Below are positions 4,437-39,220 of a stretch of 39,570 bases of DNA, piece after piece. The stretch lies in contig JARSSH010000003.1 of assembly GCA_029624815.1 (NCBI GenBank), forward strand, positions 1 to 39,570, written 5' to 3'. A model generated the notes under the pieces. That model saw only the letters and a program-made list of their open reading frames with translations. It did not search any database and was not told the origin of the DNA. The stretch comes from Candidatus Competibacter sp. (GTDB taxonomy: Bacteria > Pseudomonadota > Gammaproteobacteria > Competibacterales > Competibacteraceae). The position numbers were made by a program, and so were the translations under genes. Numbering within the stretch: the first letter of the stretch is position 1; every line of letters starts with the position of its first letter.

Positions 4437-4456
4437 TGTGGATAAGCGATGGATAA
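4437..4456 (+). promoter_or_regulatory. DnaA box upstream of dnaA
   Basis: A perfect DnaA box TGTGGATAA occupies 4437-4445, with a degenerate second copy (7 of 9) at 4448-4456. Placed about 60-80 bp before the dnaA start, it is suited to autoregulation of dnaA by DnaA. Confidence 0.75.
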
Positions 4457-5874: not shown

Positions 5875-5940
5875 AAAACCCCTGTGGATAACCTTTGTGG
5901 ATAAGTTGAATAACTTTGAAATACCTGGTTATTCGCTGGA

Positions 5941-6040
5941 TAACTTAAATTTTTTATATTTTTATTTTCGTAAAATCAATATGTTGTAATAAGTAATATT
6001 GGTAAATTCAATGTTACATATTATTTAAACACAAACAGCC
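5941..6040. other. AT-rich candidate DNA unwinding element (left)
   Basis: About 100 bp made almost wholly of A and T, including TTTTTTATATTTTTATTTT, lies between the two left-most DnaA boxes and the main box array. This is the composition and position expected for a duplex unwinding element. Confidence 0.55.
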
Positions 6041-6126
6041 AGAAAAAGCGGAAAATAGCCTGTGGATAACTTTGTGGATAAGTCGGCCATTTCTGTGGAT
6101 AAGTCGGCAAAATCTGTGGATAACGT

Positions 6127-6162
6127 TGTGGATAACTTTTGGCCCTCAAAAAGTTATCCACA
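6127..6162. repeat. Perfect inverted repeat of two DnaA boxes at oriC centre
   Basis: TGTGGATAACTTTT (6127-6140) is repeated as its exact reverse complement at 6149-6162, with an 8-base spacer. Each arm contains a whole DnaA box. The palindrome is the symmetry centre of the converging box array. Confidence 0.9.
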
Positions 6163-6272
6163 GGAAAAGTGACTTATCCACATTTTATCCACAGACTTAT
6201 CCACAGGAAAAATCGATGTAGTAATTTGATTGGTAACGATAAAAAAAAGTTATCCACAGAAAATGCCTTTCC

Positions 6273-8698: not shown

Positions 8699-12137
<3,439 letters not shown>

Positions 12138-12223
12138 GAAGTCTGTAGGGTCCGTGGTCGTTCCGTGCCGTTCGCGCTGGAGATCGCGACGGGAGGTCTT
12201 GTTTGACGGTTTAGGAATCGTTG

Positions 12224-13870
12224 ATGCCGAACTTACCGAGAATATTCCTCGCGCTGTTGCTGTTGAACTCGGCGCTGACCTTTCAGAACCGCTGGCCCAC
12301 CATCGGTGTGCGCTGGGCGCCGGAGCTGTCCCTGGAACTGGTGATCCTGTTGATGGCGCTGGCGTTGCTCGCCGCTTGGCGGGGCGTGCCGGGACGCGCA
12401 ACGCGCAACGTCCTGTTCGGGGGCTTCCTGCTGCTGGTGCTGGGGCGCTATCTGGATGTTACCGTGCCAGCGTTGATGGGGCGATCCATCAATCTGTACT
12501 GGGACAGCCAGCATTTGCCGCGGGTAGCCGCCATGTTTCTGGACAGCGTGGCCGGCTGGCAATGGCTGCTGGCGCTGCTGGCGCTGCTGGCGCTGCTGTT
12601 GGCCCTGGCCGCCGTGCTGCGCTGGGCGTTCGACACGATCGTGGCCGTGCTGGCGCGTCCGGTGGGTCGTCGCGGGCTCGGCGCGCTGGCGCTGGCCTTG
12701 CTGATGGTGTACGGCATCGGCCGCTTGAGCCCGCGCCTGCCGGCGGAACATTGGTTTTCGCTGCCGGTGACCGGGATGCTGGCCGAGCAAGCCAAGCTGA
12801 TGCTGGACGCCACGGTGTTCAGGCATCACGGCCGAATCGCCGCCCAGCCGCCGCTGCCCGTGTCGGATCTGGGTCGCTTGGGTGGGGGCGATCTGTTCGC
12901 GATCTTTTTCGAGTCCTATGGCGCGCTGGTGTTCGACGATCCCCGTTTCGCCGTCCCGCTCGCCGGCGATTTTGCCGCTTTCGAGCACTCGCTGGAGGTT
13001 TCCGGCTGGCGAGTGGCCTCGGCGCGCGTCGAATCCAGCACCTTCGGCGGATCGTCCTGGTTGGCGCATTCCAGTCTATTGTCCGGGTTGCGCATCGCCG
13101 ACCAGGGGGATTACCAGGACTTGCTGGCCTCCGACCGGGCCACGCTCGCCAGCCGTCTGGCTACCGTTGGCTATCGCACGGTCTCGGTGATGCCCGGCCT
13201 CAAGTACCCCTGGCCGGAAGGGCAATTCTATCGCTTCGATCAAATTTACAACGCCGAGCGCTTGCAGTACCCCGGTCCCGCGTACGGCTGGTGGGCCATT
13301 CCCGATCAATACAGTCTGTACCGAATTCATCAGATCGAAGCGGCGCCGGTCGGCCGCGCGCCGCTGTTGGTGTTTTACCCGACCATCAACAGCCATGCGC
13401 CGTTCGCGCCGCTGCCGCCGTATCAGCCGGATTGGAGCGTTTTCGACGCGCCGCCGCCCACCGCCGCCGCGGTCGCGGAGGCCGTGGAACTGAACCATCG
13501 GCTGGACGGTCGCGAACTGGCCTCGGCCTACCTGCAAAGCGTCCGCTACAACCTGGATGTGCTGGGGGGCTATCTGCGTCGGTACGCGCCGGCCAACGCG
13601 TTGCTGCTGGTGCTGGGCGATCACCAGCCGCCGGCGGTGGTTGGGGGTCGAGAGATTCCCTGGCAGGTGCCGGTTCATCTGTTCTCGCGCGATCCGACAC
13701 TGATCGAAGCGTTCGAGCAGGCGGGGTTTCGACCGGGCATCACGCCGGGTCCAGCCGCGCTGGGCGGCATCGAGATGCTGGGACCGCTGCTGCTGCGGAC
13801 GCTGGATAGCCGGTGGCCAGGCTCGCCACAACCCGCGCCGCTCACCGCCGCCGTGCCCCGAACTCGATGA
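12224..13870 (+). CDS. Membrane-anchored sulfatase/LtaS-like phosphotransferase
   Basis: A 548-residue protein with about four to five N-terminal TM segments (residues 5-180) and a periplasmic alkaline-phosphatase-superfamily domain like LtaS, OpgB and phosphoethanolamine transferases. Metal and catalytic elements look intact: FFESYG (metal-binding Glu), a Ser/Thr-rich nucleophile region (SSTFGGSSWLAHSSLLSG), INSHAPF and LGDHQPP. Such enzymes move phospho-alcohol head groups from phospholipids onto glycans or lipids; the substrate here is unknown. The first in-frame codon is TTG (12221), but ATG at 12224 has AGGA 7 bases upstream. It is divergent from the CDF gene and convergent with a CDP-alcohol phosphatidyltransferase, suggesting lipid head-group chemistry. 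Fold assignment is confident, function is inference. Confidence 0.82.
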   Translation: MPNLPRIFLALLLLNSALTFQNRWPTIGVRWAPELSLELVILLMALALLAAWRGVPGRATRNVLFGGFLLLVLGRYLDVTVPALMGRSINLYWDSQHLPRVAAMFLDSVAGWQWLLALLALLALLLALAAVLRWAFDTIVAVLARPVGRRGLGALALALLMVYGIGRLSPRLPAEHWFSLPVTGMLAEQAKLMLDATVFRHHGRIAAQPPLPVSDLGRLGGGDLFAIFFESYGALVFDDPRFAVPLAGDFAAFEHSLEVSGWRVASARVESSTFGGSSWLAHSSLLSGLRIADQGDYQDLLASDRATLASRLATVGYRTVSVMPGLKYPWPEGQFYRFDQIYNAERLQYPGPAYGWWAIPDQYSLYRIHQIEAAPVGRAPLLVFYPTINSHAPFAPLPPYQPDWSVFDAPPPTAAAVAEAVELNHRLDGRELASAYLQSVRYNLDVLGGYLRRYAPANALLLVLGDHQPPAVVGGREIPWQVPVHLFSRDPTLIEAFEQAGFRPGITPGPAALGGIEMLGPLLLRTLDSRWPGSPQPAPLTAAVPRTR

Positions 13871-18382: not shown

Positions 18383-19306
18383 GTGCGCGATGTCTCGACC
18401 TTCCAGGGGTTGATCCTGGCTCTGCAAGATTACTGGGCCCGCCAAGGCTGCGTACTGCTGCAACCCTACGACATGGAAGTGGGCGCGGGAACGTTTCACC
18501 CCGCCACCTTCCTGCGCGCCATCGGCCCCGAACCGTGGAGCGCCGCCTACGTGCAGCCTTCCCGCCGGCCCACCGACGGCCGCTACGGCGAAAACCCCAA
18601 CCGCCTGCAGCACTACTATCAATATCAGGTGGTCATCAAGCCCTCGCCGCTCGATTTGCAGGATCTATATCTTGGTTCGCTGGAGAATCTTGGCCTCGAC
18701 CCACTGATTCACGACATCCGTTTCGTCGAGGACAACTGGGAATCCCCCACCTTGGGCGCTTGGGGGTTGGGCTGGGAGGTTTGGCTGAACGGCATGGAAA
18801 TCACCCAGTTCACCTATTTCCAGCAGGTCGGCGGGCTGGACTGCAAGCCCGTCACCGGAGAAATCACTTATGGCCTGGAGCGCATCGCCATGTACCTGCA
18901 AGGCGTGGAAAGCGTCTACGATCTGGTCTGGACCGACGGGCCGCTGGGCCGGGTCAGCTACGGCGACGTGTTCCACCAGAACGAGGTGGAAATGTCCACC
19001 TACAATTTTGAGCACGCCGACACGACCGCGCTGTTCGTTTGGTTCGATACCTGCGAGTCCGAAAGCAAGCGCCTGATCGAACTCGGCCTGCCCCTGCCCG
19101 CTTACGAAATGACCCTGAAAGCTTCCCATACTTTCAACCTGCTCGACGCCCGCAAGGCCATTTCCGTCACCGAGCGGCAGCGCTACATCCTGCGGGTCCG
19201 CACCCTGGCGCGGGCGGTGGCCCATGCCTACCATGACGCGCGGGCCGCGCTGGGTTTTCCCATGTTCGCCCGCGCCGCTGCCCGCCTGGAGGTGGCCCAT
19301 GGCTGA
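18383..19306 (+). CDS. glyQ: Glycine--tRNA ligase alpha subunit
   Basis: GlyQ is the catalytic subunit of the bacterial alpha2beta2 glycyl-tRNA synthetase and charges tRNA-Gly. The 307-residue product has the class II core with the family-typical [39 protein letters not shown] and [20 protein letters not shown]. The frame is open upstream to 18266, but GTG at 18383 gives the family N-terminus and has GGAGG at 18373-18377, 5 bases away. It overlaps glyS by 8 bp. Confidence 0.97.
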
Positions 19307-21374
19307 CGCCCGCGACCTGCTGATCGAAATCGGCACCGAGGAACTGCCGCCCAAGGCGCTGTTTAACCTGTCCCTGGCGTTCGAGCGCGGCATCGCCGAA
19401 GGTCTGGAAAAAGCCGGTTTGACTACCGGCGCGATCCATCGCTTCGCCACCCCACGCCGGTTGGCGGTGCGAGTCGATCAACTGCCCACGCGGCAGCCCG
19501 ACCGCCAACTTGAACGACGCGGCCCGGCAGTGGGCGCCGCCTTCGGTCCGGACGGCCAACCCACCAAGGCCGCCGAGGGTTTTGCCCGCTCTTGCGGTGT
19601 GACCGTCGCCGAACTGCAACGGCAGGAAACCGACAAGGGGGCGTGGCTGGTGCATATCAGCACCGAACCGGGCGCGCCGACCGCCGATCTGATTCCATCC
19701 ATCGTCGAGGCCGCGCTCGCGGCCCTGCCCATCCCCAAGCGGATGCGTTGGGGCGATCGCGACGACGAATTCGTGCGACCGGTGCATTGGGTGGTGCTGT
19801 TGTTCGGCGCCGAGGCGATCCCCGCGACGATCATGGGTGTCCGCGCCGGTCGGGAGAGCCGCGGCCATCGCTTCCACCACCCGCAACCGATCCAGTTGAC
19901 CGCGCCCGCCGACTACGCCCGGCAACTGGCCGACGAGGGCAAGGTGATCGCCGATTTCGACCAGCGTCGCGATGCGGTCCGCGCCCGCGCCGAGGCGGCG
20001 GCGGTCGAACTGGGGGGCATGGCGATCATCAAGCCCGATCTGCTGGACGAGGTCACGGCATTGGTGGAATGGCCGGTGGCGCTGGCCGGCAATTTCGAAC
20101 GGCGCTTTCTGGAGGTGCCGGCCGAGGCGCTGATCAGCACCATGCAGGACAACCAGCGTTATTTTCCGGTGGTGGACGCGCATGGCCGGCTGCTGCCGCA
20201 TTTCATCACGCTGGCCAACCTGGAAAGCCGCGATCCGGCTCAGGTGCGGGCTGGCAACGAACGGGTGATCCGTCCGCGCTTCAGCGACGCCGAATTTTTC
20301 TGGAACCAGGATCGTGGCAGACCGCTGGCGGCACGGTTGGATCTGCTGAAGCGCGTGGTGTTCCAGCAGCGACTGGGCACCGTGGCCGACAAGAGCGCGC
20401 GAGTGGCGACATTGGCGCGTTTTATCGCCGAACAAAGGCGCGGTAACGCGGACTGGGCCGAACGGGCGGCACGGTTGGCCAAGTGCGATTTGATGACCCA
20501 GATGGTGCAGGAGTTTCCCGAATTGCAGGGCATCATGGGCCGCTACTACGCGCGCCACGACGGGGAATCGCCCGAAGTAGCCCAAGCCCTGGAGGAGCAG
20601 TATCTGCCGCGTTTCGCCGGCGACCGACTGCCGGCGACCGCTACCGGCCAGAGCCTGGCGTTGGCCGACCGGCTGGATACGCTGCTCGGCATTTTCGCCA
20701 TCGGCCAGGCGCCGTCGGGCGCCAAGGATCCGTTCGCGCTGCGCCGCGCCGCCCTGGGGGTGCTGCGCATCCTGATCGAGGGAGAGCTGGATCTTAACCT
20801 GCTGACCTTGCTGGAGCGCGCCGCCAGCCAGTTCGAACCGGCGATTCGAGCCAACAACGCGGTGGAAGCGGTTTTTGACTTCATCGTGGAACGGTTGCGT
20901 GGTTACTATCTGGATCAGCAGGTACGTTCGGATACGTTCGACGCAGTGCTGGAATGCCGGCCGCACCGGCCGCTGGATTTCGACCGGCGCGTGCGCGCGG
21001 TCGGCGCTTTCCGCGACCGACCGGAAGCCGCCAGCCTGGCCGCCGCCAACAAGCGCATCCGCAACATCCTCCGAAAGGTGGACGCGGTGCTACCGTTCGA
21101 GGTGCGGCCCGACCTGTTGGTCGAAGAAGCGGAACAGGCACTGGCGGGACGCTTGGTGGAACTGTCCTCCGAGGCGATCCCGCTGATGGAAGTCGGTCTG
21201 TACGGCGATGCCCTGAACCGGCTGGCCAGCCTGCGCGAGCCGGTGGATGCCTTTTTCGATCGGGTGCTGGTGATGGTCGAGGAGCCGGCCGTCCGCGACA
21301 ATCGCATCGCCCTGCTCAATGAATTGGGCAGTCTGTTTCTCCGCGTCGCCGATTTTTCGCGATTACAGGATTGA
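19299..21374 (+). CDS. glyS: Glycine--tRNA ligase beta subunit
   Basis: GlyS is the beta subunit of glycyl-tRNA synthetase and supplies tRNA binding, including a C-terminal DALR-type anticodon-binding domain ([17 protein letters not shown] onward). The 691-residue length is standard. Recognisable segments are [15 protein letters not shown] at the N-terminus, [32 protein letters not shown], and [21 protein letters not shown] at 19299 lies inside the glyQ 3' end with GGAGG 6 bases upstream, so translation is coupled. The three parS-like sites follow the stop codon. Confidence 0.97.
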
Positions 21375-21452
21375 GAAAGGATGAAAACGGATGGCGACGG
21401 CAAGCAGCGATATTGGGCAGGCTATTTTCCGGCAAGGCCCGGAAAGCGGCGA

Positions 21453-21468
21453 GGTTTCACGTGAAACA
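21453..21468. promoter_or_regulatory. parS: parS-like site 1
   Basis: GGTTTCACGTGAAACA matches the bacterial parS palindrome TGTTTCACGTGAAACA at 15 of 16 positions. It lies in the glyS-gmhB gap, about 15.3 kb from the oriC centre. ParB would bind here for origin segregation. Confidence 0.88.
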
Positions 21469-21521
21469 GAGCCCGATGACGGAAGTGGTTGGGATGACCG
21501 GGATGATGAGAGCCGAAGGGT

Positions 21522-21537
21522 TGTTTCACGTGAAACA
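21522..21537. promoter_or_regulatory. parS: parS site 2 (perfect)
   Basis: TGTTTCACGTGAAACA is a perfect 16-bp parS palindrome, centred 69 bp from site 1. Confidence 0.95.
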
Positions 21538-21579
21538 GCATCCAGGGGCGCCGGTTGCGGCTAATGTCGCCGATCGGAC

Positions 21580-21595
21580 GGTTTCGCGTGAAACA
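21580..21595. promoter_or_regulatory. parS: parS-like site 3
   Basis: GGTTTCGCGTGAAACA matches the parS consensus at 14 of 16 positions and is centred 58 bp from site 2. It lies 40 bp before the gmhB start. Confidence 0.75.
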
Positions 21596-21634
21596 CACTC
21601 GCTGGCCGGCACGGGCGAAAAAACACGGTCCACC

Positions 21635-22177
21635 ATGAAGCTGATCATCCTGGATCGAGACGGCGTCATCAACGAAGATTCAGACGCCTACATCAAATCG
21701 CCGGAGGAATGGAACCCGATTCCCGGTAGCCTGGAAGCGATCACCTGTCTGAATCACGCGGGCTATCGCGTGGTAATCGCCACCAATCAGTCCGGGATCG
21801 GGCGCGGGTTGCTGGATCTGGAAACTCTCAACAAGATCCATCGAAAAATGCATCGAATGGTGCAGGAAGCCGGTGGTCTGATCGAGGCGATTTTTTTCTG
21901 TCCGGATGTGGATGAGGCCAACCCCTTCCGCAAGCCCAACCCCGGCATGTTGCTGGAGATCAGCCGGCGCTTGAAATGCAGCCTGCAAGGGGCGCCGATG
22001 GTAGGCGACAGCGTGCGCGACATCCGGGCGGCGCGAGCGGCCAACGCTTGGCCCTTGTTGGTGCGCACCGGCAAAGGCGCCCGGACCCTGGAACGCGACG
22101 CGGAAAGCTGCGCTAACGTGCTGGTGTTCGACAATCTGGCCACGGTGGCCGAGTATCTGACTACTGACCATGAATGA
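21635..22177 (+). CDS. gmhB: D-glycero-D-manno-heptose-1,7-bisphosphate 7-phosphatase (GmhB-like, HAD family)
   Basis: GmhB removes the 7-phosphate from heptose bisphosphate on the way to ADP-heptose for the LPS core. The 180-residue product has the HAD nucleophile motif LDRDGVI (D7, D9), IATNQSGIGRG (motif II), RKPNPGM (motif III) and MVGDSVRDIRAA (motif IV). Odd point: E. coli GmhB binds zinc through a C-x-H...C-x-C loop just before RKP; here that loop is short and keeps only C89 (FFCPDVDEANPFRK), so zinc is probably not bound. The frame extends upstream over the parS sites, but ATG at 21635 gives the family N-terminus. It overlaps plsC by 8 bp. Confidence 0.9.
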   Translation: MKLIILDRDGVINEDSDAYIKSPEEWNPIPGSLEAITCLNHAGYRVVIATNQSGIGRGLLDLETLNKIHRKMHRMVQEAGGLIEAIFFCPDVDEANPFRKPNPGMLLEISRRLKCSLQGAPMVGDSVRDIRAARAANAWPLLVRTGKGARTLERDAESCANVLVFDNLATVAEYLTTDHE

Positions 22178-27842: not shown

Positions 27843-29264
27843 ATGACACGTATGAACAAGCGCTTGTTTTCTTTCCTGTTGTACATGTCGCTGGCCACCC
27901 TACCGGTCGTCGGCCAAACCCAACTGGTGTTCGGCCCCGGACCCGAAGGAGCGGGCAGCGCGCTGGATGCCATCGCGGCGGTGGTCAACGACGACGTGAT
28001 CACTCGCCGGGAACTGGAGGCGGCGACGGCCCTGATCAAAATCCAGTTGCAGCGGCAAAAGGTGCCCGTCCCGCCCGATCCGGTGCTGGAAAGCCAAGTG
28101 TTGGAGCGATTGATTCTGGCCCAACTGCAACTGCGCGCCGCCGAACGCAACGGCATCACCGTGGATGACGCCACCTTGAACACGGCTATCGAAACCCTGG
28201 CCCGGCGCAACAACATGAATCTGACGCAATTGCGGCAAACGGTCGAGAAAGAGGGTAACGATTTCGCCAAGTTCCGCGACGACGTGCGCCGGGAAATCAT
28301 GGCGGCGCGGCTGCGCCAAAAACTGGTGGACAGCCAGATTAATGTTTCCGAACAGGATGTGGATAGCCTGCAAGCCCAGTTGGCCGGCGGCGGTGGCTTG
28401 GGCGACGGCAATAGCACCGCCGGCGGTGAACGCGAATATCATTTGGCTCAGATCCTGATCGCGCTGCCGGAAAACGCCACGCCGCAACAGGTCGAAACCG
28501 CCAGGCGCGAGGCCGATCAGGTGTTGGCGCGGCTGCGGCAGGGTGCGGATTTCCGTCAGGTCGCGGTGAGCGTTTCCGCCGGCCGGCAGGCGCTGGAAGG
28601 CGGCGACCTGGGTTGGCGGCGTGCCGATCAGTTGCCCACCCTGTTCGCCGAGGTGGTTCCGAAGTTGCGGCCCGGACAGCTTAGCGAGCTGATCCGCAGC
28701 CCCAGCGGGTTTCACATTGTCAAGCTGTTGGAGGTCAAGGGCGGTAGCGGTGAAGCACCCTCGTCCGCACCCTCTAACCCCGTGACCCAGACTCGCGCCC
28801 GCCATATTCTGCTCAAGACCTCGCCACAACTGTCCGACGACCAAGCCCGCCAGCGCCTGACGCAACTGCGCCAGCGCATTCGGAATGGCGAGGATTTCGC
28901 GGACGTGGCCCGCGCCAATTCCGAGGATACCGCTTCCGGCGGGCGCGGCGGCGATTTGGGCTGGGTGGCGCCGGGTATGCTGGTGCCGCGGTTCGAGCAG
29001 GCGATGAACGAACTACAGCCCGACGAAATCAGCGCGCCGTTCAAGACGCAGTTCGGCTGGCATATCGTCCAGGTGCAAGAACGGCGTCAGGGTCCGGCTT
29101 CGACCGAAACCGAACGCGCCCGGGTGCGGGAAGCGCTGTTGCGGCGACGCGCCGACGAGGAATGGGAACAAACCTTGCGTCGGCTGCGTGAGGAAGCCTA
29201 TGTGGAGATCCGCCTGCAGCCAGCGGCGGCCTCGGTCGAGAACCCCACTCCGTCGGTGCAATGA
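27843..29264 (+). CDS. surA: Periplasmic chaperone / peptidyl-prolyl isomerase SurA
   Basis: SurA escorts outer-membrane proteins, including LptD, to the Bam complex. The 473-residue precursor has a signal peptide (about 1-25), a SurA N-terminal chaperone domain (IAAVVNDDVITRRELEAA), and two parvulin domains (REYHLAQILIALPENAT ... GFHIVKLLEV; TRARHILLKTSPQLS ... GWHIVQVQER). It lies 12 bp after lptD and overlaps rsmA as ATGA. pdxA, usually between surA and rsmA, is absent. Confidence 0.96.
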   Translation: MTRMNKRLFSFLLYMSLATLPVVGQTQLVFGPGPEGAGSALDAIAAVVNDDVITRRELEAATALIKIQLQRQKVPVPPDPVLESQVLERLILAQLQLRAAERNGITVDDATLNTAIETLARRNNMNLTQLRQTVEKEGNDFAKFRDDVRREIMAARLRQKLVDSQINVSEQDVDSLQAQLAGGGGLGDGNSTAGGEREYHLAQILIALPENATPQQVETARREADQVLARLRQGADFRQVAVSVSAGRQALEGGDLGWRRADQLPTLFAEVVPKLRPGQLSELIRSPSGFHIVKLLEVKGGSGEAPSSAPSNPVTQTRARHILLKTSPQLSDDQARQRLTQLRQRIRNGEDFADVARANSEDTASGGRGGDLGWVAPGMLVPRFEQAMNELQPDEISAPFKTQFGWHIVQVQERRQGPASTETERARVREALLRRRADEEWEQTLRRLREEAYVEIRLQPAAASVENPTPSVQ

Positions 29265-30049
29265 GCGCCGCTTTGGCGCACCGCCCCCGCAAGCGCTTCG
29301 GCCAGCATTTCCTGCGCGATTCCAACGTGCTCGAACGCATCGTCGCGGCGATCCGGCCGATGCCGGGCGATCGTTTGGTGGAAATCGGCCCCGGTCTGGG
29401 GGCGTTGACCCGGCCGTTGCTGGAAGTTGCCGGCGCGCTGGATGCCGTGGAACTGGACCGCGATCTGCTGGAACCGCTGCGGGATCATTGCGCGGGTGTC
29501 GGTACGCTGCGGATTCATCACGCCGACGCGCTGAAATTCGATTTCGCCGCGCTGCGCGGTACCGGTTCCCGCTTGCGGGTGGCCGGCAACCTGCCCTACA
29601 ACATTTCCACTCCCCTGCTCTTCCATCTGCTCGATCAGGCCAGTCACCTGCGCGATCTGCACTTCATGTTGCAACAGGACGTGGTGGAGCGGATGGCGGC
29701 CGGTCCGGGCGAGGAGGCTTATGGCCGGCTATCGGTGATGTTGCAATACCGCTGCCGAGTCGAGATGCTGTTCACGGTTGGGCCGGAGTCGTTTCGGCCA
29801 CCGCCCAAAGTCCGATCGGCGGTAGTGCGCTTGGTTCCACGTGAAACATCGTCCGTCGCGGTGCGGGACGAGCGACTATTCGCCGAGGTGGTGCGGCGGG
29901 CCTTCGCCCAGCGCCGCAAGACCCTGCGCAATGCCTTGCGTGGCTGGTTGGATATTACCCGGATTGAGGCGGCGGGCGTCGATCCTGGCGCCCGCCCGGA
30001 GACGCTGGATTTGGCGGCATTCGCGGCGTTGAGCGAACTTGCTTCCTGA
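29261..30049 (+). CDS. rsmA: 16S rRNA (adenine(1518)-N6/adenine(1519)-N6)-dimethyltransferase
   Basis: RsmA (KsgA) dimethylates two adjacent adenines near the 3' end of 16S rRNA as a late step in 30S assembly. The 262-residue protein opens with RPRKRFGQHFLRDSNVLERI, has SAM-binding VEIGPGLGALTRPLL, motif IV NLPYNISTPLLFHLL, and the C-terminal QRRKTLRNAL segment. It overlaps the surA stop by ATGA. A parS-like palindrome is embedded in its coding sequence at 29833-29848 (encoding VPRETS). Confidence 0.96.
   Translation: MSAALAHRPRKRFGQHFLRDSNVLERIVAAIRPMPGDRLVEIGPGLGALTRPLLEVAGALDAVELDRDLLEPLRDHCAGVGTLRIHHADALKFDFAALRGTGSRLRVAGNLPYNISTPLLFHLLDQASHLRDLHFMLQQDVVERMAAGPGEEAYGRLSVMLQYRCRVEMLFTVGPESFRPPPKVRSAVVRLVPRETSSVAVRDERLFAEVVRRAFAQRRKTLRNALRGWLDITRIEAAGVDPGARPETLDLAAFAALSELAS
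29833..29848. promoter_or_regulatory. parS: parS-like site 4, within rsmA
   Basis: GGTTCCACGTGAAACA matches the parS consensus at 14 of 16 positions, with the central CACGTG intact. It lies about 8.3 kb beyond the glyS-gmhB cluster and 23.7 kb from oriC. Confidence 0.68.
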
Positions 30050-34950: not shown

Positions 34951-36955
34951 GACGCCATCAATCGATAGGGGCATCGATAGAGGCTGGCTATTATCGATAG
35001 GTTTGTTGGCAGCTATCGTTGATTTAGCAGTTTTTTTTGTATTATTCAATCAATCTCATTCATTGATTGTTGCGCATATCGTAAGTTTTCTATCGGCGGT
35101 AGTTACTCAATACTTATTGATTAGTCTTTGGTTAACAAGAGCTAATTTTTTTCGACCAAAATTAAGTTGGTCGATAGAGTTTTTTATTATCGCCTTATTG
35201 ATGTTTTTTTTGCGAGGTGGAATCCTGTCCTCTTTGATAAGTTCTTCATATATATCTTCTGTATTAGTTATATATTTTTGTATTTTTATCTCTGCAATAT
35301 TGTATTTTTTTGTTAGTTTAGGCGCTTTATATTTGGAATTTACTAATCAACAAAAATCTGTTAATAAGTGGCAATATTACTGTATTTGGCTGATTATTTA
35401 TTCAATCGCTTTGCGATTGCTATATTTGAGCGCGCCAGAACTTTTCTACGAGGAAGCTTATTATTGGAATTATGCGATGCATCTAGATATAGGATATTTG
35501 GATCATCCACCAATGGTTGCTTGGATCATCGCGCTCTTTACAAAACTGATGGGTAACAATGAATTTGCGGTTCGTTTTGGCGCTTTTATATGCTGGTTTA
35601 TAACCGCTATTTTTTTATGCAAACTAACAGAACTTGTCTATAATAAATCAAAAGATATTCAAACAGTCCTGCTGGTTGCCGTACTACCCGCCTACTTCGC
35701 GGTAGGTTGGGCGATGACCCCCGACGCACCGTTAGTAGCCTGTTGGGCGATGGCTCTATATTTTTTTTATCGAGCACTGATTCGTGAATCACGAATGGCC
35801 TGGATAGGAGTTGGTCTTGCGATTGGGCTAGGCATGTTAGCAAAATATACGATCGCTTTATTAGGCATCGCTGCATTCGCTTTTGTACTAATTGATCGCG
35901 ACGCAAGGAAATGGTTGCTTCGACCGGAACCTTATGCTGCAATTGCCATTGCTCTGATCATAGGGTTACCCGTTATTATCTGGAATGCCAATCATGAGTG
36001 GGCCTCGTTTTTGTATCAAAGTCGTGGCAGGGTAGCCAATCAGTTTGAGTTTTCTCTGCCTTATCTTCTGGGAACGGTGGTTTTAATTATTACACCTACT
36101 GGATTCTTGTCACTGATCGCGATTTTGTTATCCAGGAAAACCATTTTGTCAGGAGGCGATGCGATTCTTGATCATCCGGCAGATACACAAGCAAAACGCG
36201 GTTACGTTTTATTAATAAGCCTGACTTTATTGCCGGTTTCAGTGTTTGTATTACTTAGTTTGTTCAGAGAAACCAAGTTTCACTGGACCGCGCCATGCTG
36301 GCTGGGCATCGTGCCTTATATGGCGCCGACTGTAACAGGTAGCTTGCGGTTCGGTTTGAATAAATTCTTTGGATGGGGCCAGCGTGCTTGGCCCGCGACG
36401 ATTATTGGTTGCCTGTTGCTCTATGGTGTTTCTTTGCATTATTTAGCACTGGGATTTCCGGGAGTTTCTTATCCGTATAACTATCATCTATTGGGATGGA
36501 ACGATTTCGGGCGTGAAATAGAAGTGCTGGTAGATCGTCTTGAGCAGGAGACAGGTTCAAAAATACTGGTGGTTGGCATGGATAGGAATAGAGTGGCTAG
36601 TGGCCTTGCCTTTTATCGTACTAAAGCGATTGAGTTTTCCCACAAACAATTAAAGTATAGTCCTGCATTTGATACATCTAGTTGGCATCTATTTGATGGA
36701 AATGGTTTGATGTACGAGTATTGGTTCCCCATAAATCGGCAAAACAATAAGACCTTGTTATTGGTTGGTAGAAATAGATCTGACTTGGCTAGTAAAATCG
36801 TCTTTTCCCATGTAAAGCAAGCACAAGAAATTAAAGAGATCAATATCTACAAAAACAACCGGCAGGTCGGTCTTTATTACTATCGTGTAGTGGAAGGCTA
36901 TCGAAGCCAATCGACTGCTAATGATGACCCTGCCGCCACTAACCTCGCTGATTAA
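34934..36955 (+). CDS. GtrA-domain / GT39 (ArnT-like) membrane glycosyltransferase
   Basis: A 673-residue polytopic protein. Residues about 15-115 hold four TM segments resembling a GtrA-like domain (LLSIGLLAAIVDLAVFFVLF, SFLSAVVTQYLLISLWLTRA), which in other systems helps undecaprenyl-linked sugars cross the membrane. The rest is a GT-C glycosyltransferase of the GT39/ArnT type with ELFYEEAYYWNYAMHL, GYLDHPPMVAWI and a predicted ten or so TM segments plus a soluble C-terminal part. It probably transfers a lipid-linked sugar onto a periplasmic acceptor. Start: GTG at 34934 has GAGGAG 10 bases upstream; TTG at 34895 is an alternative. Base composition switches sharply to AT-rich here. The GtrA assignment is by pattern only. 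Confidence 0.8.
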   Translation: MPVEIKTPSIDRGIDRGWLLSIGLLAAIVDLAVFFVLFNQSHSLIVAHIVSFLSAVVTQYLLISLWLTRANFFRPKLSWSIEFFIIALLMFFLRGGILSSLISSSYISSVLVIYFCIFISAILYFFVSLGALYLEFTNQQKSVNKWQYYCIWLIIYSIALRLLYLSAPELFYEEAYYWNYAMHLDIGYLDHPPMVAWIIALFTKLMGNNEFAVRFGAFICWFITAIFLCKLTELVYNKSKDIQTVLLVAVLPAYFAVGWAMTPDAPLVACWAMALYFFYRALIRESRMAWIGVGLAIGLGMLAKYTIALLGIAAFAFVLIDRDARKWLLRPEPYAAIAIALIIGLPVIIWNANHEWASFLYQSRGRVANQFEFSLPYLLGTVVLIITPTGFLSLIAILLSRKTILSGGDAILDHPADTQAKRGYVLLISLTLLPVSVFVLLSLFRETKFHWTAPCWLGIVPYMAPTVTGSLRFGLNKFFGWGQRAWPATIIGCLLLYGVSLHYLALGFPGVSYPYNYHLLGWNDFGREIEVLVDRLEQETGSKILVVGMDRNRVASGLAFYRTKAIEFSHKQLKYSPAFDTSSWHLFDGNGLMYEYWFPINRQNNKTLLLVGRNRSDLASKIVFSHVKQAQEIKEINIYKNNRQVGLYYYRVVEGYRSQSTANDDPAATNLAD

Positions 36956-36970
36956 CTGAAAATATTTTCT

Positions 36971-37924
36971 GTGTGCCCCAGCAAGCAAAACATCCAGACT
37001 TTTTTCTCCGCCGATGCCATTAAGTTGTTCATTCGAATACTGGTGACATTGTTGATTTTTGCGCTCATCCTGCGCTCGATCAATATACAACAGGTATGGG
37101 AGACTTTGAGACAAGTCAAATTTTATTTGCTGGCAGTAGCATTAGTGCTGCAATTTGGTAGCACTACGGTGTCGGCCTATCGTTGGCAACTGATCATGCA
37201 AAATCTGCATTTTGGGCAGTCCTTTTCTTTTTACTGGCATAGTTATTTCAAAGCCATGTTCTTCAATCAAGGGCTGCCGACCAGTATTGGAGGAGATGCC
37301 CTGAGGGTGCTTGATGTTGCCAATCAGGGATTCCGTAAAAGAGATGCACTGTATGGTATTATTTTAGATAGAGTTTCAGGCTTAGCCGCTTTAATTTTGC
37401 TGAACCTGTTGGCATATTTTTTTAATCCAGATTTATTGCCAGTTCAGGTCTATTACATAACTTTAATATTGGTAGTCGTTGGCATGGTTGCTGTTGTATC
37501 GATCATTTCTCTGAAATATCTTCCTTGGCCAAATAATTATTATCCTCAGCTAGTCTTTTTAGAAACGATTTCGACGAGGTTATGCCAAGCATTTTCGTCC
37601 AATCGCGCACTTTTATTAATATCATCGATGTTAATTCCGCTGCTTGCCATGTTGGTTTTTTATACCATTGGTTGGGCGCTGGGTTTGCAATACGATTTGG
37701 TGACTTATTTTGTTATCGTGCCACCAGCGATTTATTTAACGATTATTCCTATTTCCTTGGCAGGATGGGGGGTACGTGAGGGTGCTCTGGTGGGATTGTT
37801 TTCTTGGGTCGGCGCCGATAAGCCGACTGTATTAGCTATGTCAGTTGTATATGGATTTACACTGATTATAGTCAGCGTGCCCGGGTTGGTTATTTATCTT
37901 AAAGGTCGTCATCGCGTGGGTTGA
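36971..37924 (+). CDS. YbhN / lysylphosphatidylglycerol-synthase-type membrane protein
   Basis: A 317-residue protein with about eight TM segments of the UPF0104/AglD family (the membrane half of MprF). The family landmark is present as NQGLPTSIGGDALRVLDVA, and SLAGWGVREGALVGLFSWVG near the end is also typical. Such proteins are commonly found next to glycosyltransferases and are suspected to move lipid-linked intermediates, but the function is not settled. The start is GTG at 36971, 15 bp after the GT39 gene; AT-rich like its neighbours and probably in the same operon. Confidence 0.85.
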   Translation: MCPSKQNIQTFFSADAIKLFIRILVTLLIFALILRSINIQQVWETLRQVKFYLLAVALVLQFGSTTVSAYRWQLIMQNLHFGQSFSFYWHSYFKAMFFNQGLPTSIGGDALRVLDVANQGFRKRDALYGIILDRVSGLAALILLNLLAYFFNPDLLPVQVYYITLILVVVGMVAVVSIISLKYLPWPNNYYPQLVFLETISTRLCQAFSSNRALLLISSMLIPLLAMLVFYTIGWALGLQYDLVTYFVIVPPAIYLTIIPISLAGWGVREGALVGLFSWVGADKPTVLAMSVVYGFTLIIVSVPGLVIYLKGRHRVG

Positions 37925-37975
37925 GTAAGCAAATAAAGAGATGGATAGTATTATTATAACTGGCTGGTGAATATG

Positions 37976-39220
37976 ATGAAAATCAACATCATGCGCAAGA
38001 TAGATTACTTTGCTGGAATTCCACTCTGCTTTCTTGCGACTGGTCTTATCCACTTTATTGGCCTGTTTTTCAAGCAAAAGCGTGTATATCCGAGAAAAGT
38101 GCTCTTTATTGAATTGTCGGAAATGGGCAGTACAATTCTAGCGGATCCTGCCATGAGAAAAATGCAACAAAAGAGTAACTCGGAACTGTATTTCCTGATT
38201 TTCAAAGCCAATGTGGCTAGTTTGTATCTATTAAATACCATCCCAAGAGCTAATATCTTCGTTATTCGAGAAAATCAATTCTTCAATCTAGTAATGGATA
38301 CGCTACGTTTTCTATTATGGGTACGCCGTTGCGGGATTGACACCGTTATTGACTTGGAATTATTCTCGCGGTACACAGCTCTATTGACAGGCTTATCTGG
38401 CGCAACGAACCGAATCGGTTTTCATTCATTTCACAATGAAGGGCTGTATCGAGGAGAGATGTTGACCCATCGGGTAACCTATAACCCGCATTTACATATC
38501 GCCAAGAATTTTATAGCCTTGGTTAATGCGGCCTTAACGGATGCAGAAGAGACGCCTTTTTCCAAGACGCTGATACCCGATAGCGAAATCGAGCTGGCTA
38601 AGGCTGAAGTGAGTGCAAGTGCTTTATCAGCGATGAATGATCGTATTCGCGGTGAATATCCTGCCTACGACGAAAAGCGTTGCAGGGTCGTACTGATTAA
38701 TCCTAATGCTAGCGATTTGTTGCCCCAGCGACGTTGGATGCCCGAATACTTTGTGACGGTGATGCGCGGCTTGCTGGCTGATGGTGAAGATCTGTTGATC
38801 TTGATTACGGGCGCTCCGGCGGAACGGAGCGAGGCGGAAGAGCTTAAACAGCAAGTTGGACACGAGCGCTGCGTTAATTTTTCCGGCCGTCTTTCATTGC
38901 AAGAATTGCCGGCACTATATCAAATCGCCGAAATTATGCTGACCAACGATTCCGGGCCAAGCCATTTTTCTGCTGTAACCAACTTGCGTACCTTTGTCAT
39001 TTTCGGTCCCGAGACGCCGCGACTGTACGGTTCTCTGGGCAATAGTACGCCGATTTATAGCGGTCTGGCCTGTTCGCCGTGCGTGAGCGCCGCAAACCAT
39101 CGACAGACACCCTGCGCCAATAATGTATGCCTACGGGTCATCAAGCCGGAGATGGTGTTGGAGCAATTGCGCAATGCGCTGAAATTAAAGAAACATAAGT
39201 GTTCTAAATCAGCCCTGTAA
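37976..39220 (+). CDS. Glycosyltransferase family 9 (heptosyltransferase-like)
   Basis: A 414-residue GT-B glycosyltransferase related to LPS heptosyltransferases. An N-terminal hydrophobic segment (YFAGIPLCFLATGLIHFIGL) suggests membrane association. LFIELSEMGSTILADPAM is the N-domain entry, VVLINPNASDLLPQRRW and the donor-site MLTNDSGPSHFSA are GT9 hallmarks. Near the C-terminus a Cys-rich segment GLACSPCVSAANHRQTPCAN is followed by NVCL: four cysteines in a C-x2-C...C-x4-C array not seen in WaaC/WaaF. Start is ATG 37976 (ATG 37973 and GTG 37967 are alternatives, none with a strong Shine-Dalgarno). Third gene of the AT-rich glycan block. Confidence 0.85.
   Translation: MKINIMRKIDYFAGIPLCFLATGLIHFIGLFFKQKRVYPRKVLFIELSEMGSTILADPAMRKMQQKSNSELYFLIFKANVASLYLLNTIPRANIFVIRENQFFNLVMDTLRFLLWVRRCGIDTVIDLELFSRYTALLTGLSGATNRIGFHSFHNEGLYRGEMLTHRVTYNPHLHIAKNFIALVNAALTDAEETPFSKTLIPDSEIELAKAEVSASALSAMNDRIRGEYPAYDEKRCRVVLINPNASDLLPQRRWMPEYFVTVMRGLLADGEDLLILITGAPAERSEAEELKQQVGHERCVNFSGRLSLQELPALYQIAEIMLTNDSGPSHFSAVTNLRTFVIFGPETPRLYGSLGNSTPIYSGLACSPCVSAANHRQTPCANNVCLRVIKPEMVLEQLRNALKLKKHKCSKSAL

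Follow-up and report, generated by a model that had tools for sequence, protein, structure and literature searches.

Organization of the locus

The window, by which we mean the whole stretch of 39,570 nucleotides analyzed here, belongs to the 3.63 Mb draft genome of a glycogen-accumulating bacterium of the Candidatus Competibacteraceae. In its 260-bp gap between the glyS stop codon at 21374 and the gmhB ATG at 21635 lie three copies (sites a, b and c) of a palindrome with a CACGTG core, all contained in an intergenic cluster spanning 143 bp (Table 1). These had been recognized as candidate parS sites in a preliminary description of this DNA, and they are indeed present, with one, zero and two mismatches to the strict 16-mer, respectively. 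That description overlooked a fourth copy, site d, which lies 8.3 kb from the cluster and inside the rsmA gene. Measured against a looser version of the 16-mer, TGTTYCACGTGRAACA, all four fit the parS palindrome, with no mismatch in site b, one each in a and d, and two in c; at the position of site c, the CACGTG core is intact in all four close relatives that were aligned. The earlier estimate of about 15 kb to oriC was accurate: 15.2 kb separate the first cluster site from the array of DnaA boxes between dnaA and dnaN, apart from which a 13th perfect box is found at 4437. Sites a–d are thus all origin-proximal, at distances of 15–24 kb from oriC. A search of the window with Rfam at gathering thresholds returned only a tRNA.

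Table 1. Features of the window discussed in the text
Feature	Position	Strand	Description
parS site a (putative), GGTTTCACGTGAAACA	21453..21468	.	15/16, 1 mismatch to TGTTTCACGTGAAACA
parS site b (putative), TGTTTCACGTGAAACA	21522..21537	.	16/16, 0 mismatches
parS site c (putative), GGTTTCGCGTGAAACA	21580..21595	.	14/16, one change within CACGTG core
parS site d (putative), GGTTCCACGTGAAACA	29833..29848	.	inside rsmA; 2 mismatches to strict 16-mer
oriC, 12 perfect TTATCCACA DnaA boxes	5883..6258	.	dnaA-dnaN gap
glyS, left neighbor of cluster	19224..21374	+	TIGR00211, 875.4 bits
gmhB, right neighbor of cluster	21635..22177	+	family models start within 1-2 codons of ATG
rsmA (ksgA), contains site d	29261..30049	+	TIGR00755, 269.6 bits

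Rarity of the palindrome in the genome

Dinucleotide shuffles of the window (n=100) contain on average 0.07 matches at up to three mismatches and at most one, and none of the 100 reaches the four observed. Across the draft genome (3,626,272 bases in 70 contigs), sites a–d are the only four places within two mismatches of TGTTTCACGTGAAACA, against 0.30 expected under a base-composition model with an assumed G+C of 0.62, so that the palindrome does not occur at the random frequency that would have contradicted the original proposal. At exactly three mismatches the strict 16-mer finds two further places, and a reversed control pattern has four places at up to three mismatches in the same genome; as the composition model expects 5.0 places at this level versus 0.30 at up to two mismatches, only the latter set is meaningful. 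The looser TGTTYCACGTGRAACA adds a fifth place at two mismatches on contig C62, which we treat as background, its control pattern having one place.

Conservation and turnover of the intergenic sites

We compared 39 genomes of the family, with family and genus membership following the labels of the genome set. Thirty-five have a match to gmhB, and 30 gmhB loci, our own included, were fetched. One to four sites (up to two mismatches to the looser motif) lie in the gap upstream of gmhB in 26 of the 29 relatives, two of which (L192 and L209) have no glyS in the fetched stretch. The exceptions are L207 (G028), L212 (G031) and L213 (G032); in the last two the gap measures only 16 bp and the sites lie elsewhere. 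Among the genomes outside the fetched 30, whose gmhB matches are weaker or split (G001, G015, G021, G022 and G023), a listed site lies at most about 100 bp upstream of gmhB in G001 and G015, and the nearest listed site is ~3 kb from gmhB in G021 and G023. A set of named genomes, partly overlapping the family records, has a gap site in 11 of 12 Competibacteraceae-like loci (L041–L052) and in none of 68 others, some of which are contigs without glyS. The core 14-mer, allowing one mismatch, has a place in 38 of the 39 family genomes, as against four places in all for its reversed control. In five relatives whose dnaA and sites share a contig (G002, G020, G021, G023 and G038), the nearest site seen is ~6–36 kb from dnaA.

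Individual gap sites come and go among relatives, Ca. C. phosphatis for example having a decayed middle site, and the spacing between them varies; this turnover implies no helical phasing. The two best named-genome matches of GmhB, in a comparison that may leave out records of the window's own genome, are from the Candidatus Competibacteraceae, among them Ca. Competibacter phosphatis (95%); the third-best (88%), from isolate GAO1, carries the label Phycisphaerales, which is taken to be an error. The single glyS-gmhB site of CPB_P15 (L047:9947-9976) lies, as read by eye, within a perfect 30-bp palindrome, as does that of CPB_C95 (L048).

A site fixed in the codons of rsmA

The last 15 bases of site d are read as the codons GTT CCA CGT GAA ACA, specifying VPRET in RsmA. 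Matches to rsmA occur in 36 family genomes, from which 30 loci were fetched, better matches first and our own included. The string GTT-CCA-CGT-GAA-ACA is identical in 25 of the 29 relatives, their RsmA proteins being 72–90% identical to that of the window. Where a relative keeps the amino acid, it also keeps the codon in 135 of 138 cells within the site, compared with 3221 of 5716 outside it. Among 247 five-codon stretches of rsmA, site d ranks at the top for codon retention, the best non-overlapping stretch reaching 0.79; these statistics are uncorrected for relatedness, which is equal across all stretches of the gene. The five codons are mostly rare: their usage for their own amino acids in 12 genes of the window is 6.6, 8.0, 10.5, 52.5 and 3.7%, in the order given. 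Position 5 of site d is a C, probably because the proline codon demands it.

The four relatives without the string are L174 (G017), L180 (G028), L181 (G026) and L183 (G011); in G017 and G026, ParB is present and the rsmA site has decayed. The rsmA-bearing genomes outside the fetched 30 are G001, G009, G021, G022, G023 and G031. In G009 a listed site falls within the gene, and the distant G021, G023 and G031 have sites, none of them within rsmA, which places the rsmA site in the nearer genera rather than in the whole family. Extra copies lie just 3' of rsmA in G014, G016, G017, G018 and G019. Several genomes of genus g4 have them directly downstream of the gene (e.g., L046:8683-8770 and G017:C31:71937-72070), and in G017 four such sites accompany the loss of the one within the gene.

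The probable cognate ParB and its conservation

A search of the genome with the TIGR00180 profile finds two ParB proteins, on contigs C21 and C18. The first (ParB1) is chromosomal, which removes the concern, raised along with the original proposal, that the genome might have no parB. Its gene order is rsmG-parA-parB, followed by atpI-atpB, so that a probable cognate ParA–ParB pair lies beside rsmG, the usual place for the chromosomal genes; in Pseudomonas aeruginosa, too, parAB is near rsmG. The genome also encodes a complete SMC (1074 bits).

ParB1 aligns to the solved Caulobacter ParB 6t1f with an E-value of 1.2e-50. With residue numbering set by motif (the numbering of the 6t1f chain itself is shifted), it has R173, N178, G201 and R204, as in the canonical parS-binding interface of Caulobacter, for which the excerpted text of PMC7383237 gives the roles of the contact residues. 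It differs from the Caulobacter protein in having H162 for Q and R171 for K, as well as L179 and E184. All 30 fetched family ParB loci, our own included, match a pattern requiring N178 and R204; R173 and G201, which that pattern left open or half-open, are likewise found in 30 of 30. The parS of Caulobacter crescentus is presumably of the same canonical TGTTTCACGTGAAACA type as the sites here. Near-full ParB1 (at least 61% identity) occurs in 31 of the 39 family genomes and a partial one in G015 and G036; G028 has a remnant, and ParB1 was not found in G005, G011, G019, G031 and G035.

The cluster had also been described as displaced from parAB, a view that we find unsupported: here parAB is on a separate contig, and parS sites 3–15 kb from oriC are known from Pseudomonas. 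In one relative in which both fall on a single contig (G030:C5), the sites are at 39.0 and 42.2 kb, and parB lies 17–20 kb from them, at 58.9 kb. According to a review, par operons and the majority of parS sites are neighbors only in the broad sense of sharing the ori domain.

Natural losses of parAB

Six of the 39 family genomes lack a full or partial ParB1, and four of these (G005, G019, G031 and G035), in which chromosomal ParB was not detected and the sites are still present, were set aside. In G005 and G035 rsmG is absent too, and the contig ends in parA in G019 or just after it in G031. These absences look like assembly gaps, leaving the four genomes uninformative on co-loss. The remaining two are verified deletions and belong to different genera. 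In G011, atpI directly follows rsmG; in G028, a remnant of ParB (residues 111-183 and the last residues) stands between these two genes. G011 has no place within two mismatches of TGTTYCACGTGRAACA, and retains a single 14-mer, GTTTCAGGTGAAAC, whose core is altered. G028 has four such places, none canonical and none in the gmhB gap or rsmA; its gap retains a degraded GGTTCCATGTGGAATC, read in L050 (CAIRMO010000097.1), which is taken as the same record. Canonical sites are thus absent in two of two deletions, a small number. The two separate deletions, each accompanied by loss of the canonical sites, offer a good though small natural test of whether the sites depend on ParB. Since dnaA is also gone from G028, its site loss is not ascribable to ParB alone. 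The literature matches listed for loss of ParABS hold nothing direct.

Both genomes have features of their own. G011 (L263, G011:C14) is of 1.2 Mb, with a full-length dnaA match, no ParB family match and no canonical parS. G028 (Loclat_bin-08336; L255, G028:C43:37000-46000, also L216 and L257) is of 3.6 Mb and nominally 100% complete. In its assembly, dnaA is cut to about the first 178 codons, the DnaA family search finding only this fragment, and the dnaA-dnaN interval is without a DnaA-box array, the congener G026 having 12 perfect boxes there. Its recF is in fragments and parAB deleted, and dnaN and mnmE are intact around them. G028 may possibly be a gammaproteobacterium that dispenses with DnaA-dependent initiation. 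Loss of dnaA in cyanobacteria is treated in PMC7198777.

A probable chromosomal centromere in two places

In ParABS systems, ParB is loaded at parS as a clamp with the help of CTP and then spreads; the loaded origin is in turn acted on by ParA and SMC. We consider it very probable, judging from sequence, that sites a–c together with site d are the parS centromere sites of this chromosome. The observations behind this are the sites themselves, their rarity, their conserved position, the codon fixation in rsmA, the matching ParB, and two lineages that have lost both the sites and parAB. By analogy with the known family, the ParB1 dimer would bind each site through its helix-turn-helix, close into a CTP-dependent clamp, slide off the site and spread across the origin region, after which ParA would separate the ParB-coated origins; SMC would probably be loaded at the ParB-coated origin as well. 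The multiple nearby sites probably provide redundancy: single ones decay and reappear among relatives, most of which keep at least one in the gap. In all this the system looks like an ordinary ParABS centromere, real and well conserved; what is new is the two-locus layout, the codon-fixed rsmA site and the natural knock-outs. The proposal of a main ParB-loading centromere in the gap fares well as to ParB loading, as predicted from the sequence, and less so as to "main", which omits the conserved fourth site.

Four sites near oriC are also the arrangement of parS1-parS4 of P. aeruginosa, which are near-perfect and lie 3–15 kb from oriC (PMC5098823, in excerpt). ParB enrichment seeded by these four extends over more than 20 kb, and a single site is enough (PMC5098823 and PMC4368675, both in excerpt). 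There too, intragenic and intergenic sites are mixed; the sites have the form TGTTCCACGTGGAACA/C, and of ten predicted, nine fall in coding sequence (PMC4368675, in excerpt). Unlike in P. aeruginosa, three of the sites here share a single intergenic cluster of 143 bp, the other being in rsmA. Several points count against the centromere interpretation, among them the retention of sites in the four genomes without detected chromosomal ParB, the altered 14-mer of G011, the lack of an intact rsmA site in G017, G026 and the distant genomes, and the loss of dnaA from G028. In addition, the core of site c is changed, and P. aeruginosa ParB failed to bind a two-mismatch site placed near oriC (PMC5098823, in excerpt); further, residues 162 and 171 of ParB1 differ from those of Caulobacter.

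The interpretation locates the probable centromere for a group of wastewater bacteria; none of the literature matches listed for parS or ParB mentions Competibacter. It would also make the rsmA site a clear example of codon choice in a housekeeping gene being constrained by the centromere. The matches listed on synonymous constraint at parS hold nothing direct, PMC4368675 being one with parS in coding sequence. A more specific idea, which we put forward tentatively and regard as rather unlikely, is that the centromere of this family is bipartite, its halves obeying different rules: an intergenic cluster of rapid turnover, and a fixed, asymmetric rsmA site dictating five codons and probably the RsmA residues RET. 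The latter might then have a role of its own, such as a dedicated nucleation or SMC-loading point, for which cluster sites could not substitute.

Alternative explanations

The palindromes might instead be transcription-factor operators for gmhB and the genes that follow, since they lie just upstream of gmhB, and a CACGTG core is a common operator type. Against this, a near-identical sequence is fixed in the coding region of rsmA, 8.3 kb off, further copies lie 3' of rsmA in the five genomes named above, and the canonical sites are gone where parAB is deleted; with no sigma-70-like promoter found in 21300-21700 either, operators are very unlikely. There is an equally small chance that the sites act as RNA, forming hairpins or a long stem in a glyS-gmhB transcript. 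The 260-nt gap does fold better than 200 of 200 shuffles (z -3.19); yet the long stem is mainly a pairing of site a with site c, as expected of any two copies of a palindrome, and relatives with a single site (L189, L193 and L194) cannot form it. The rsmA site, moreover, stands alone, and neither of the two terminator-like matches in 21300-21700 (0.6 expected) is at a site.

It is also highly improbable that the sites serve the plasmid-type ParB2 of C18 in place of ParB1. ParB2 is present in the genome, a ParB of 38–48% identity to ParB1 (E below 1e-45) occurs in 30 of the 39 family genomes, and one two-mismatch site of G002 is on a ParB2-like contig (G002:C89:18725). However, ParB2 has A173, R178 and A201 in place of the R, N and G of parS-binding ParBs, and should therefore read a different site; C18:1-20000 is without a site at up to two mismatches and the whole of C18 without a match to the strict 16-mer at up to three. 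Finally, the open frame over the gap, which runs from 21371 to gmhB and has counterparts in L041 and L044 that stay open over 118 and 248 codons ahead of gmhB, could be taken for a small gene or an N-terminal extension of GmhB. It is almost certainly neither, as the preliminary description had correctly seen: the sites are read in frame as FHVKQ, FHVKQ and VSRET, and among the four close relatives compared the frame is broken after 34 and 15 codons in L042 and L043. The longest invariant runs in the five-sequence alignment are the parS sites and an A-tract, and the GmhB family models begin at about the annotated ATG, so that the upstream frame is not part of the protein.

Additional observations

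Contig C18 (G000:C18; L008 and L040) carries a second ParA–ParB pair, with a SopA/RepA-like ParA alongside ParB2 with its altered DNA-contact residues; the pair may belong to a plasmid, a chromid or an integrated element. Perfect 14-bp palindromes in C18:1-20000, sought as a candidate ParB2 centromere, are limited to two unrelated single ones. Another palindrome, TATTCCACGTGGAATA, recurs outside the parS region (G017:C40:425, G017:C73:14521 and 14577, and G005:C21:7352) and is perhaps the site of another ParB. Within the window, 12136-13809 is a 557-codon open reading frame with strong AT skew (-0.35) and no NCBIfam match at E <= 1e-10. Towards its end, in 35001-39000, the G+C falls from ~0.63 to 0.38-0.45, and the genes there are glycosyltransferase-, flippase- and heptosyltransferase-like by weak family matches, resembling an acquired surface-sugar island.
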